NCBI GenBank assembly: GCA_003023535.1
Contig: PXSC01000096.1
Span: forward strand, 1-19,161
From: Halobacteriales archaeon QS_9_70_65
GTDB taxonomy: Archaea > Halobacteriota > Halobacteria > Halobacteriales > Haloarculaceae
Length of the DNA stretch: 19,161 nucleotides
Reading direction: 5' to 3'
Each line of letters begins with the position of its first letter. The stretch's first letter is position 1. Under the pieces are notes generated by a model. That model did no database searches and was not told where the DNA came from. It saw only the letters and a list, made by a program, of their open reading frames with translations. The position numbers and the translations under genes are program-made. Shown piece by piece: positions 2,602 through 18,270 of this stretch.

Positions 2602-4030
2602 CAGTGGACCACCTCCACGTCCCGCAGCAGCTCCAGGTCACACAGCGTCCCGTGGACGTCGCGGACGTCCTCGAAGCCGTACATCAGCATGAGCAGCCGC
2701 TCCAGTGCCAGCCCCCAGGCCATCACGTCGCAGTCGACGCCCAACGGCCGAAGCACCTCCTCCCGGAAGACCCCCGAGTTGCCGATCTCGATGAGCTCGC
2801 CCGTCTCGGGGTGCTCGCCGAACAGCTCGAAGCTCGGCTCCGTGTAGGGGTTGTAGTGGGGCTTGAACTCCAGGTCGGTAATGCCGAACTGCTCGTAGAA
2901 CTCCGTGAACGTCCCCATCAGGTCCCGGACGGACAGCTCCTCGGCCATCACCCACCCCTCGATCTGGAAGAACTCCAGCAGGTGCGTCGGGTCGAGCGTG
3001 TCGTTGCGGTACACCTTCTCGACGCTGAAGTACCGCTGGGGTGGCTCCAGTTCGCCGGCGGCTTCCCCCGAGAGGTGCCGCATCGACAGCGACGTGGTGT
3101 GACCCCGCAGGTCGACCTGCTTGGCCACCGCCGGCGTCCACGGCGAGTGGTAGCCGTCGCCGTCCTCGCCGACGCCCTCGCGGTGGGCGTCCTCGACGCC
3201 CGCCAGGAGGTCCTCCGGAATCGACTCCATCGGCGGCACGTCCAGGGCGAACTGGTCCCAGTGGGTCCGGGCCGGGTGGTCCTGGGGCATGAACAGACAG
3301 TCGTTGATCCAGAACTCCGCGTCGGCGTGAGGGCCCTCCATCTCCCGGAATCGGCGTCGGCCTCGACGTTGTAGTCGGCGAACTCGACGTCCTCCCAGTC
3401 GCCGGAGGTCAGCAGTTCGGGCGTCACCTGGCCGACCGTCTCGGCGGCCTCGACGCCCTCCATCAGCGCGGTGACACCGTCGTCGGACAGCGTCACCGAC
3501 CGGACCGTCGTCTCCGAGCGCTCGAGCAGGCCGCGGGACTCGAGTCGGTCGAGGACGTCCGCATCGAGGTATCCGGCCGACCCCTCGGCGACGGCCTCGA
3601 GTGCGTCCGGTTCGGGGTCGTCGTCGCCGGCCTCGGGGTCGGCGAGCACCGCGCCGCCGTCGATCTCGCCCAGTCCCTTCCGGGCGAGGTTCGTCAGCGC
3701 GACGTCGACCGCCTCGCCGTCGAGGTCGGCGGCCTCGACGAGTCGGCCCATCTCGGCCGGCTCCCCGTCGGCGCCGACCTCCAGGGCCGCCTCGTGGAGC
3801 CGCCGCTCGGGTAGTCCCGCCCCGCGGTACCGCTCGCCCTCGGCCGTGAGGGCGACCTCCTCGGCGACGTGCTCCTCAAGGTCGAGCAGTCCTTCGTCAG
3901 CGAGTTCGAAGGCGGCCCGCGTGACCGCGGCGGGGTCTTCGCCGAGTTCCTCGGCGAGTTGTGCGATCGTCTTCGTCTCGGTCGCGCTGGCGGTTTCCAG
4001 CAGCGCGACCTGCGTGTCGGGCAGTCTCAT
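2601..4030 (-). pseudogene. pheS: Phenylalanyl-tRNA synthetase alpha subunit, frameshifted by an internal deletion
   Basis: Catalytic alpha chain of Phe-tRNA synthetase (class II aaRS). Start MRLPDTQVALLE is the usual haloarchaeal PheS N-terminus; residues 1-~220 hold the winged-helix tRNA-binding domains. This frame runs to VEADAD near base 3352. The catalytic domain then continues in another frame, FREMEGPHADAEFW (motif 1 area), MPQDHPARTHWDQF, then YFSVEKVYRNDTLDPTH (motif 2) and GLALERLLMLMYGFEDVR (motif 3). Some 25-28 residues normally joining the two blocks are absent, equal to a deletion of about 80 bases that changes frame. First gene of pheST, downstream of the small ORF at 4121-4198. 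No RBS or TATA box is obvious just before 4030, so it is probably read from the promoter near 4225. Identity is very sure; the break resembles those in neighbouring genes. Confidence 0.92.
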
Positions 4031-4120
4031 TGGCGTGTGTGTGCGTGGCTGACTGTTAGCGGTTCCGACTCGACGGCGGAGTTTCGGCGGCCGGCGCGGC
4101 GCCGACCGGGTCCACCCCAC

Positions 4121-15517: not shown

Positions 15518-15610
15518 CAGCCGCCCCCCTCTACGTCGGGACGGCCGGCTGAGGGCGACGAGTTCTCGGGGTCGCGCGTCACGCACATGTCGGTCGTGGG
15601 GGGCCCAGGC

Positions 15611-15695
15611 GTGTTCAGCATTTTCGAGGTGGAGCCCCCGGCCTCAAGGAGCGAACGTAGTGAGCGAGTAGGCCGGAGAGGAAACCGACATAGTA
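15611..15695 (+). repeat. Insertion-sequence-end remnant (copy A)
   Basis: Homologous to 4243-4390. It contains GGAGCCCCCGGCCTCAAGGA, an inverted repeat CCGGCCT...AGGCCGG enclosing GAGCGAACGTAGTGAGCGAG, and the end GAGAGGAAACCGACATAG. The shared CTCAAGGANCGA motif also occurs in the 3' end of the tnpB element (17121-17132). It looks like a solo right end of a related IS200/IS605-type element, lying just upstream of the tnpB promoter. Confidence 0.5.
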
Positions 15696-15732
15696 CGACA
15701 CGGCCGGCACACTTCGAAACCCGACTCCCGAG

Positions 15733-15741
15733 CGTTTAAGA
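15733..15741 (+). promoter_or_regulatory. Core promoter of tnpB
   Basis: AGCGTTTAAGAGCC with GTTTAAG at 15734-15740, about 26 bases before the ATG at 15763, spacing for a leaderless transcript. Confidence 0.5.
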
Positions 15742-16784
15742 GCCGTTAATCATACGTCTGAAATGGAGGTCCGGCGTACCGCACCTGTCAAACTCGTCGT
15801 CCCCGACGAGCACCGCGACGACCTCCACGAATCTGCCCGACAATTCCTTCACTGCGCCAACCGCGCCGCCGAGTTCTGTCGGTCCGACGATTCCTACATC
15901 AAACGCGTCACGGCCAACACAACCGCACGAGACGCGCTCTACGACGAACTCCGCGACGAAACCGACCTTACCGCGAACCTCGTTCAAGAAGCCATCCGAC
16001 GCGGCGTCCAAGCCGTCAACGGATGCGTCGAACGATGGAAAAGCGGAAAGCGAGTGAGCCAACCGGAGTTCACGTCGTGGAGCATGCTCTACGACAAGCG
16101 GAGCGCAACGTTCTACCGGAACAAAGTTTCACTCCCGACGGTCAATGGACGTATCGAGTGTGTCTTTGAACTTCCCTCGGACAGCCCCACGCCACACGAA
16201 CAGTACGTGCTGTCAGAGGAATTCGAGTTCCGTGCAAGCACGCTCCAGTACGACGCAGTGGACGACGAGTTCTACTTCCATATCACCACTCGAAAGTACG
16301 ACTCCAAAGGAGAAGACGGTGAAGACGCAGAGGTTTCGGAAGATACTGAGCACCAGACAGCCCTCGGTATCGACCTCGGCGTTAGCAGTCTCGCCGTCTC
16401 CTCCACCGGGCGCTTCTGGCAGGGAGACGACTACGACCACTGGTGCCGCGAGTTCGAGAAGCGACGTGGCGAGATGCAACAGCGCGGCACGCAAGCCGCG
16501 CACAACGCACTGCTTCGACTCGGCAAACGAGAAGAAGCGTGGCCAACATTCGGGAGCGGCTTCTCCAAGCGAAGTGGCACCACGTATGGGCGTTCCGACG
16601 CCTACTTGAGTATGTCTCCTACAAGGCACCTGAACGGGGTGTCTCTGTGGTACAAGTCGAGCCGAGCCACACGTCCCAGCGCTGCTCTCGGGCGGACTGC
16701 GGGTTCACGCACGACGACAACCGTCACGGAGAACAATTCTGTTGCCAGAAGTGCGGATACAAAGTGAACGCAGATTACAACGCC

Positions 16785-16836
16785 GTCGCCAGAAATCTCT
16801 GATTTCTGGCTGCCCGCCAGACGTAGTCTGGCGACC
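16785..16836. repeat. Hairpin-pair insertion 1, inside tnpB coding sequence
   Basis: 52 bases interrupt the conserved NADYNA/AKNIG codons: AACGCC on the left and GCGAAGAACATC on the right join in frame if they are removed. Contents are stem CCAGAAATC loop TCT (16789-16809), 5 nt, stem CGCCAGAC loop GTA (16815-16833). Taking CCG as a 3-bp target duplication leaves a 49-bp unit (16786-16834) with perfect 7-bp terminal inverted repeats TCGCCAG/CTGGCGA. Confidence 0.8.
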
Positions 16837-16916
16837 GCGAAGAACATCGGGATGCGGTACGTTCGGAAACGGACACACAGACTCCGGTCCTCGCCCACGT
16901 CGGGGAGCGAAGACGT

Positions 16917-16973
16917 CTTGGAAAGCGGAGCTTTCCGATGGTAATGAAATCTTCGATTTCCTTCGACACCAGT
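16917..16973. repeat. Hairpin-pair insertion 2, inside tnpB coding sequence
   Basis: 57 bases lie between GAAGACGT and AAACGTGCGTATAAC; removing them restores the expected C-terminus (EDVNVRITGG). They hold stem TTGGAAAGC loop GGA (16918-16938, one wobble pair), 7 nt, and stem GAAATC loop TTC (16946-16960). The insertion itself contains a TAA. No clear terminal repeat is seen in this copy. Confidence 0.7.
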
Positions 16974-17058
16974 AAACGTGCGTATAACTGGTGGGGCGTT
17001 GAACGGCGAGAGTCACCAGCCTATCGCCGGTGACTGATTGCCGGGAGTCCACATCAAA

Positions 17059-17115
17059 GCCACCGAAAGGCGAAGCCTTTCGAGGCCTCGGCAGAGCAAA
17101 GCTCTGCCGGCGGCC
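17059..17115. repeat. Hairpin-pair insertion 3, in the 3' end of the tnpB element
   Basis: Stem CGAAAGGC loop GAA (17064-17082), 6 nt (AGGCCT), stem CGGCAGAGC loop AAA (17089-17109). It is flanked by GCC on both sides (17059-17061 and 17113-17115), a possible 3-bp duplication. It splits an otherwise continuous right-end sequence (CATCAAAGCC / CTCCCCTCAAGG). Confidence 0.65.
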
Positions 17116-17140
17116 CTCCCCTCAAGGACCGAGGCGCGTA

Positions 17141-17200
17141 GTCATTCGAGACGGCGAAGCCATCTCGTGATGACGAGAGAGCTTCGCTCTCTCGGACCAC
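17141..17200. repeat. Hairpin-pair insertion 4, in the 3' end of the tnpB element
   Basis: Stem CGAGACGGC/GCCATCTCG loop GAA (17147-17167, one mismatch), 6 nt (TGATGA), stem CGAGAGAGC loop TTC (17174-17194, perfect 9 bp). It lies between GGCGCGTAG and CCGAGGGAATATGG, which pair with each other in related right ends. The insertion would break the scaffold hairpin of the omega RNA. Exact edges are uncertain. Confidence 0.6.
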
Positions 17201-17235
17201 GCCGAGGGAATATGGTAGGGTAGTTTACCCTGCCG

Positions 17236-18270
17236 CTACATCCCCGAGAGGCCGCCGCGATTCCGGGCGACAAGTTCGTAGAGCCGGCGCAGCGCCAAGG
17301 TGACGACGCCGGCGCCGAGCAGGAGGACGACCGCGCTGACGGCGGTCCCGAGGAACGGGACGAGCCCCAGCAGCGCGACGACGACGGCCCCGACCAGCAG
17401 CGCGAGGTACCGGCCGTCGGCGCCGGTGTAGGACAGCAGCCACGCGCCGACGACGAACCGACCGTAGACGGACGCCACCCACGCGAGCACGAGCGTCGAC
17501 AGCACCACCGCGACGGCCAGCGGCAGCCCGACGACGGTGATCGCCAGCAGGAGACTGGCGGCGGCGGCGCCGGCCAGCGCCGCCAGGCCGACGCCGGCGG
17601 TCCGCAGCGGCTCGGCGACCGTCGTCTCGTGGGCCGCGTCGGCGAAGCGGGGTCCGATGGCCAGCAGTATCGCCCCGAGGAGGAGGTTGGCGAAGAACAT
17701 CAGTACCGAGAAGACGATCGACAGCACGCCGGCCGGCGGGACGAGCGCCAGTTCCTGCGTCCGCTGGATCGCCCCGCCGACGGCCGCGCCGCGGTTATCG
17801 AGACTTCCCTCGTAAGTGAAATCCTCCTCGACGGTCGCGGTCTCGGCGAGGGTGATCGAGCCGGCGAAGACGTTCGCCTCGCCGCCGACCGCCCCGGCGA
17901 CGGTGACGTCGCCGCCGACCGCGCCGAACGAGCGGTCGACCGAGCCGGTCTCGCTCAGCCGGACGCTGCCGGCGTAGGCCAGGACGTTGCCGCCGACCGT
18001 GCCGTCGATGCGCGCGCTGCCGCCGTAGACCCTGACGATGCCCGTCACCTCGCCGCCCTCGGCGATACGGACGTCGCCGCCGTAGGCGCGGAGGTCGCCG
18101 TCGACGGTCCCCTCGACGACGACAGTACCGCCGGTCGCCGAGAGGTCGCCGACGGTCTCGTCGGCCGACACCTCGACCGTCCCGCCGACGCGGGTGTCGG
18201 CGGCCGCGACGCCGGTGGCCAGCGACAGCACGAACACGACCGCGAGGGCGACGACCAGGGGGCGGCGCAT
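17236..18270 (-). CDS. Polymer-forming (bactofilin-like) membrane protein
   Basis: 344 residues. The start is the ATG at 18270 ([20 protein letters not shown]), because it opens a clean signal peptide (cut near AAADT) and a TATA-like box lies 27 bases upstream; the longer frame has no such features. Residues ~25-170 are a beta-helix made of short turns such as [19 protein letters not shown] and [19 protein letters not shown], typical of bactofilin/polymer-forming domains, here outside the cell. The second half holds several membrane helices ([77 protein letters not shown]). The function is not known; it may be a surface or envelope-organising protein. It is divergent from the RFC gene with 79 bases between start codons. 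It looks intact. Confidence 0.85.

Follow-up and report, generated by a model that had tools for sequence, protein, structure and literature searches.

What is the 49-bp palindrome that interrupts a tnpB gene in the window (the whole 19,161-nucleotide stretch of DNA that was analysed), and how did it come to lie there? The sequence-only reading took it for a tiny mobile-looking element bounded by a target duplication. We found that such elements entered by an insertion event in which 2 to 3 bp of target (CG, TG, CCG, CCR or CGT) were duplicated, and that, on several occasions and in both orientations, they have arrived at one set of codons in different tnpB genes. We consider it likely that the palindrome represents a non-autonomous mobile element some 50 bp in length, that it belongs to a haloarchaeal family of double hairpins, and that members of this family arrive repeatedly at these tnpB codons. 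The build, T-N-hairpin 1-linker-hairpin 2-A, resembles an inverted pair of REP hairpins. At 49 bp, the element is among the smallest mobile-looking elements, and it is unusually choosy about its site.

The unit occupies 16786-16834 and consists of two perfect hairpins flanked by copies of CCG. On its left lies GCCG (16782-16785) and on its right CCGCG (from 16835), and the largest direct duplication that can be drawn around it is 3 (CCG/CCG). The unit reads, in order, TCGCCAGAAATC TCT GATTTCTGGC TGCC CGCCAGAC GTA GTCTGGCGA. Its arms are 100% complementary (16788-16797 with 16801-16810, and 16815-16822 with 16826-16833), and the DNA fold of 16770-16850 has a z score of -4.44, with 0 of 200 shuffles equally good. 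Thus, the two tight hairpins proposed earlier, with loops TCT and GTA, are present. An Rfam search of 15600-17400 returned three matches below threshold, none of them on the element. The features are as follows.

15763..16944, + strand: host gene, a tnpB pseudogene (IS200/IS605-type) split by the element and also carrying an internal deletion, from profile matches and reading frames
16783..16785, + strand: duplicated target CCG, left copy, present as a single copy in empty sites
16786..16834, + strand: 49-bp double-hairpin element, orientation 1 with respect to tnpB, borders from the filled/empty comparison
16786..16792, + strand: left terminal repeat TCGCCAG, not conserved in all relatives
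16788..16810, + strand: hairpin 1, stem of 10 bp (GCCAGAAATC) and loop TCT, from complementary arms and DNA fold
16811..16814, + strand: linker TGCC joining the hairpins, the hallmark of the subfamily (TGCC in 19 of 42 distinct elements)
16815..16833, + strand: hairpin 2, stem of 8 bp (CGCCAGAC) and loop GTA, from arms and fold, with compensated relatives
16828..16834, + strand: right terminal repeat CTGGCGA
16835..16837, + strand: duplicated target CCG, right copy, present as a single copy in empty sites

The element splits tnpB between the two Ala codons of NADYNA^AKNIG (Asp-x-Asn-Ala^Ala). Excising 49+3 bases restores the frame and the family sequence NADYNA-AKNIGMRYVRKR, and excising 49+2 or 49+4 fails to do so. 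The earlier claim of an insertion inside tnpB with a 3-bp target duplication therefore stands. The upstream part of the gene (15763-16554) matches PF01385 with an E value of 0.00081, below the curated cut-off. Its closest relative is a tnpB in the nearest genome compared with the window (G001:C26; the genome is 88% complete), which shares 96% identity over 840 bases and is open over 420 codons. The site in this relative is empty, with 5 mismatches in 49 joined bases, and exactly 52 bases are absent at the insertion site in two further G001 tnpB genes, L319 and L320. Empty sites carry one CCG, matching the inferred duplication. Compared with the G001 copy, the window tnpB also misses 88 bases at about 16540-16543, with a shifted frame, as computed from the ends of two matches that overlap by 4 bases. 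The window tnpB has two breaks, the 49-bp insertion and a deletion near 16540-16543. Had all close homologues carried the 52 bases, an insertion would be hard to argue; most lack them. A motif script applied to the fetched tnpB loci read 80 distinct sites, comprising 76 empty, 3 filled and 1 with a diverged element (L307), and 18 sources added no reading, several being repeats of loci already read. The core of the sequence-only reading, a tiny mobile-looking element, is supported by these empty sites and by homologues that mostly lack the insert.

A genome search for double hairpins with filled and empty counterparts, as the earlier reading had proposed, revealed a family. The subfamily pattern was found at 19 places in 17 of the 391 genomes of the class, and 17 of the 19 lie at the same tnpB codons, Asp-x-Asn-Ala^Ala, with both orientations seen. 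Among these 17, L142 corresponds to the copy analysed as L073/L304, L146 sits in a degraded tnpB, and L145 has Glu replacing the first Ala. The two places outside the tnpB site are L143 and L148. More copies at the tnpB site occur in the named contigs of Haloarcula rara SHR3, Halocatena pleomorpha, YIM A00010 and SW_6_65_15, and also on the Halomicrobium urmianum plasmid NZ_CP084091.1, where tnpB is decayed; G014 (L307) holds a variant element there. Several loci represent one copy present in two collections, and named and unnamed matches are not additive. The host TnpBs are diverse: three aligned ones are 26, 18 and 50% identical to the first. Three host TnpBs of relatives match PF07282, and two of them also match PF01385 (one below the cut-off). 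In a wider contig collection, 10 of 21 pattern matches were haloarchaeal; the remaining 11 (from Photobacterium, Deltaproteobacteria and others) had a different build by eye and were set aside as chance. A looser class-wide pattern gave counts, not summed, that resembled those of the reversed control, and it yielded 3 extra places from the six fetched.

We compared nine filled/empty pairs. Eight differ by 52 bases at the site, and the ninth, with the 51-bp element of L062, differs by 54. In the pair L289 (G009, filled) and L290 (G003, empty), 423 of 437 aligned bases are identical and 52 are inserted at the site; in the pair L147 (G398, filled) and L293 (G018, empty), 477 of 497 are identical, again with 52 inserted. 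The filled L289 also has 60 further bases that L290 lacks, in the tnpB tail about 159 bases past the start of the element.

The orientation of the element follows its target. Across 22 tnpB rows, representing 21 elements because L079 is read both ways, the 3 flanking bases are identical in 18 and carry one mismatch in 4. The first Ala codon is GCC in all 6 orientation 1 rows, and in the 16 orientation 2 rows it is GCG in 14, GCA in 1, GAG in 1 and never GCC (Fisher p = 1.3e-5, for rows that are related and not independent). Because orientation tracks the wobble base of this codon, the site read in the element's own direction is CGCCG^CG. Empty tnpBs have GCG|GCG or GCC|GCG in 41 of 76 cases. 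In the fetched loci we counted CGCSGCG, the target heptamer, at 0.87 per kb; its presence alone therefore does not account for finding 17 of 19 copies in tnpB.

We also asked whether the shared position reflects repeated arrival or a few old insertions that were spread by IS transposition and tnpB recombination. On a tree of 95 TnpB segments (76 empty, 5 in orientation 1 and 14 in orientation 2, leaving out three rows: L145, which is short, L136, which is decayed, and L079 as read in orientation 1), the filled/empty state changes 15 times, and at least five of these changes are forced by well-supported branches. This argues for repeated arrival of the insert. The tree is a quick one, in which 44 of 92 inner branches are weak and long-branch warnings include the window's own row. 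With shuffled labels the mean was 17.6 changes against the 15 observed, so the insert is only weakly clustered. That clustering agrees with a few old insertions, as does the sharing of copies by close relatives (the HADINA/HADLNA group: G001, G009, G044 and G398). So does L079 (around 4017-4065, reverse strand coordinates), where one element lies between two different tnpB fragments in opposite directions; from this arrangement, recombination between element copies probably occurs too. However, filled copies are scattered among empty ones in each of the tree's three large branches, one TnpB group holds both element orientations, and orientation follows the wobble base. Together with the forced changes, these observations make a few old insertions an unlikely source of the shared position.

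Copies in other genes also have empty counterparts. For L143 (G178, Haloferax larsenii), we searched 14 further genomes of the genus and none has the element, the gap falling at the site in 10 and being shifted by the alignment in 4. For L148 (G338), 7 of 8 other genomes align across the site and all 7 are empty; the eighth gave a 38-base match only. The net difference at both sites is 51 bp, that is, 49 + CG. Relatives with the linker TGCTAA or TGCCAA, which we call type B, occur at 30 places in 94 genomes. We inspected 26 type B rows: 14 are flanked TG..TG, 3 are flanked CCR..CCR (in tnpB at QSG^F) and 4 are without a clean right end. The remaining 5 have no paired hairpins and look like chance matches. 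One further copy, flanked CGT..CGT, lies at AKR^V of tnpB. Matching empty counterparts were found for the AKR^V and QSG^F copies and for one TG copy (L007, 6 mismatches in 50); most other type B copies had no empty counterpart among the fetched loci. In G056 (L042), copies stand in tandem and TG is common to neighbours. At L173, L175, L176 and L177 of the same genome, a type B element sits at one and the same codon in similar copies of a small gene (...GTWCKPCRSTGC...); its first loop is GAA in two of them and TTC in two.

The duplicated word varies with the target: it is CCG at NA^A, CGT at AKR^V and CCR at QSG^F, all of 3 bp, and CG or TG, of 2 bp. Consistent 3-bp duplications had been expected, but some copies duplicate 2 bp and others 3. 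The C-terminal copy of L062 does not fit a clean duplication.

The sequence-only reading had been reminded, with a hedge, of the PATEs of Haloquadratum. One could suppose that the element is a terminal-only PATE, or a remnant of an IS605 end, moved single-stranded by a Y1 (HUH) transposase, with CCG as a carried cleavage word that is also sought as target. PATEs are linked to IS605-type transposons, can shrink to 52 bp and have palindromes that resemble IS605 ends, and the 52-bp terminal-only form retains, on our reading, one of two near-terminal palindromes (sections of PMC3119063 cited here). They are like the present element in being haloarchaeal, palindromic and tied to IS605-type transposons, and their shortest forms have a similar length. 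A different haloarchaeal repeat, which lies partly at the 3' ends of tnpB genes, also has hairpins of the form CCAGAAATC-nnn-GATTTCTGG, and a Y1 mechanism also predicts that the duplicated word correlates with element subtype, as seen. However, PATEs are without terminal inverted repeats and, in the table, without target duplications (same sections of PMC3119063), whereas the element has the ends TCGCCAG/CTGGCGA and duplicates CCG, CG, CGT, CCR or TG. Identity with PATEs was rejected on the terminal repeats of the window copy and the duplications in filled/empty pairs, and the hinted link did not survive. Elements with the linker TGCC have CCG flanks in tnpB, yet the two copies in other genes have CG flanks, and the empty sites agree. 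Nor did Y1 transposase track the element in the carrier genomes: Y1_Tnp (PF01797) was matched in 12 of 17 carriers against 266 of 391 genomes overall. The five carriers without a Y1_Tnp match are G001, G044 and G204, with zero (G001 being 88% complete), and G043 and G114, which are absent among the matches listed. We therefore regard movement by a Y1 transposase as quite improbable.

We then asked which parts of the element are conserved. We collected 42 distinct elements of 47-57 bp, 19 of which have the linker TGCC. All are hairpin pairs, the script having demanded two perfect stems, so that single hairpins fall outside these counts. Of the 19 class-wide places, 18 have a fully paired stem 2, built from 9 different arms, though the search fixed only CGYC of it. 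The element ends vary, reading TCGCC, TTGCC, TGGCC or TAGCC on one side and GGCGA, GACGA or GGTGA on the other. Both hairpins are kept through compensatory change, and the terminal repeats are not. The 7-bp terminal repeats described earlier are thus perfect in the window copy but are not conserved across the family. YG-TC precedes stem 1 in the 14 TG-flanked type B rows, in L143 and L148, and in the orientation-1 tnpB copies. Several orientation-2 copies instead have G, T or A following the T, which speaks against a CGTC/TGTC tag. These data bear on a further explanation, in which a DDE transposase acts on the terminal inverted repeats and so cross-mobilises the element as a very small MITE, duplicating 2-3 bp of target. 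The inverted ends TCGCCAG/CTGGCGA of the window copy and the target duplication agree with this, but the ends are not conserved whereas the hairpins are, and the duplication length varies between 2 and 3; we judge a MITE very unlikely.

For a non-autonomous double-hairpin element, we propose the following mechanism. A putative recombinase acting in trans would recognise both hairpins, cut at ...YG^T and A^YG..., and join the element into a short staggered target. In tnpB, the target word would be supplied by the conserved Asn-Ala-Ala codons. Copies may persist at this site because the final RuvC aspartate lies just before it, and they would then be spread by IS transposition and by recombination.

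What does the insertion do to TnpB? In undegraded orientation 1 copies, translation stops within the element (NA-VARN...). In orientation 2 copies the frame continues for 7 to about 115 codons. For the four of them in which the element length plus 3 is divisible by three (L062/L134, L070, L132 and L133), the element is read through in frame and adds 17-18 residues (VAR...LAT) before the normal C-terminus; the upstream tnpB frames of these copies are shortened. Among 139 public TnpB proteins (19 plus the best 120 of 127), 3 have NAVARNRRFLAARQT at the insertion codon, one of them being the Haloarcula rara query. Two others listed among the 139, P0031 and P0119, end in NAVAGLRPAGSKVA (a NAVAG tail) at the same codon; judging from these residues, the tails are probably from another element variant.

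Splicing of the insert out of RNA as an archaeal intron, or its bypass in translation, would leave the protein uninterrupted and would suit both the unchanging position of the insert in tnpBs that are otherwise open (for example, L017, L078, L080, L144, L141 and L150 keep 358-375 codons upstream of it) and the conservative evolution of upstream codons in several copies, but we rejected both as scarcely credible because inspection and a DNA-parameter fold found no bulge-helix-bulge at the junctions (the flanks pair CGC/GCG, with one mismatch, then GTCGCCAGA/TCTGGCGAC), copies also occur in other genes and between genes, and the frame of intact orientation 1 copies stops inside the element.

An AlphaFold model of an uninterrupted relative was middling (mean pLDDT 71.5, pTM 0.46), and we drew on it only for two features, the helix that contains the site and the poorly predicted tail. 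The insertion codons fall in the last confident helix (355-373), and residues 373-417 are modelled with low confidence. The solved relative 7wju_A (422 residues, deposited as an OrfB_Zn_ribbon protein), which we take to be a Cas12f, aligns to residue 411, just past the same motif.

We compared private non-synonymous and synonymous changes in filled tnpBs. The counts were 12:41 in L144, 9:24 in L289, 10:33 in L325, 18:45 in L078, 16:38 in L304, 12:28 in L307 and 35:79 in L079. Six of these seven are no looser than their empty sisters, L079 being the exception (sister 9:43). Higher ratios were found in L017 (117:68), L150 (122:87), L137 (76:39) and L080 (44:41), for which the closest empty relatives are remote (59-70% DNA identity) and in which shifted frames may contribute. 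Because upstream tnpB evolves conservatively in 7 of the 11 copies tested, a tolerated site is plausible. It is possible that the insert is tolerated in some copies, and decay is likely in others; the tnpB insertions may also be recent. We offer selection for, or tolerance of, an altered TnpB as a hypothesis only. A bolder and doubtful extension is that RNA-guided nuclease genes in Halobacteria are the target of a site-specific element of some 50 bp, which homes to their RuvC-III codons, is oriented by one target base, and leaves an element-coded C-terminus (NA-VAR...) or an in-frame insert of 17-18 residues, with the catalytic Asp kept and TnpB at least partly functional. The element would then be a parasite with a safe landing site, or a means for hosts or rival elements to trim TnpB.

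Small palindromic repeats (REPs, RPEs, SMRs and PATEs) are common. To our knowledge, the movement of most of them is not understood, partly from a scarcity of clean filled/empty pairs whose ends are defined. In the present family the ends and the 2-3 bp duplications are defined, empty counterparts are numerous and the target can be predicted, which makes its mechanism directly testable. In the REPIN/RAYT system, two inverted hairpin REPs with a GTAG tag move as a unit through an enzyme supplied in trans by the RAYT gene. The hairpin-pair build is alike, but we found no GTAG or RAYT link for the element.

Closest in build, as compared by description, are the inverted dimers of CGTC/TGTC-tagged REPs, which share the tag position and the inverted pair. 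CGTC-tagged REPs are hairpins with an unpaired CGTC, often TGTC, that form inverted dimers, lie in some cases inside genes and occur in 5 bacterial phyla; the sections of PMC3733652 cited here give them no known transposase, and describe stems of 8-9 bp with AT first, loops of 4-5 and a tail of CCA. The haloarchaeal elements differ in having stems of about 6-11 bp, stem 1 mostly starting with GCC, loops mostly of 1-5, and a linker TGCC or TGCTAA, and in that CG or TG acts as a target duplication with empty sites. Closest in habit are the SMR-A of Haloquadratum walsbyi, again compared by description. SMR-A and SMR-B are tiny, too short for a transposase, and have inverted ends; SMR-A is about 110 bp and HqIRS41 about 80 bp, and according to the sections of PMC3119063 cited here they do not duplicate their target. 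SMR-A prefer IS605-type elements and PATEs, where they enter palindromes close to the ends and are for the most part outside the transposase ORF (same sections of PMC3119063). The present element likewise targets IS605-type elements, with 17 of 19 close copies in tnpB, and it differs in its length (47-57 bp), its duplicated target and its site in tnpB codons. Our searches of open-licence PMC papers turned up none that describes such elements in tnpB, and the Haloquadratum paper (PMC3119063), as cited in part here, was the only relevant haloarchaeal one. That a mobile element repeatedly strikes the C-terminal catalytic region of TnpB, a Cas12 relative, bears on how TnpB activity is naturally lost or tuned.

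Two other double-hairpin repeats were seen along the way. One family, approximately TCCCCAGAAATC-nnn-GATTTCTGGTGTGCGAA-CGAGACGC-nnn-GCGTCTCG-TCAA, occurs at L001, L005, L009, L010 and L016; it lies in tnpB 3' parts (L001, L005 and L009) and elsewhere, with CG..CG flanks in 4 of 5 by manual parse. The other, at 17141-17202 of the window, downstream of tnpB, looks unrelated (GAGACGGCGAAGCCATCTC / GAGAGAGCTTCGCTCTCTC); similar copies are present at several places in G001, and it has the double-hairpin build in common with the 49-bp element.
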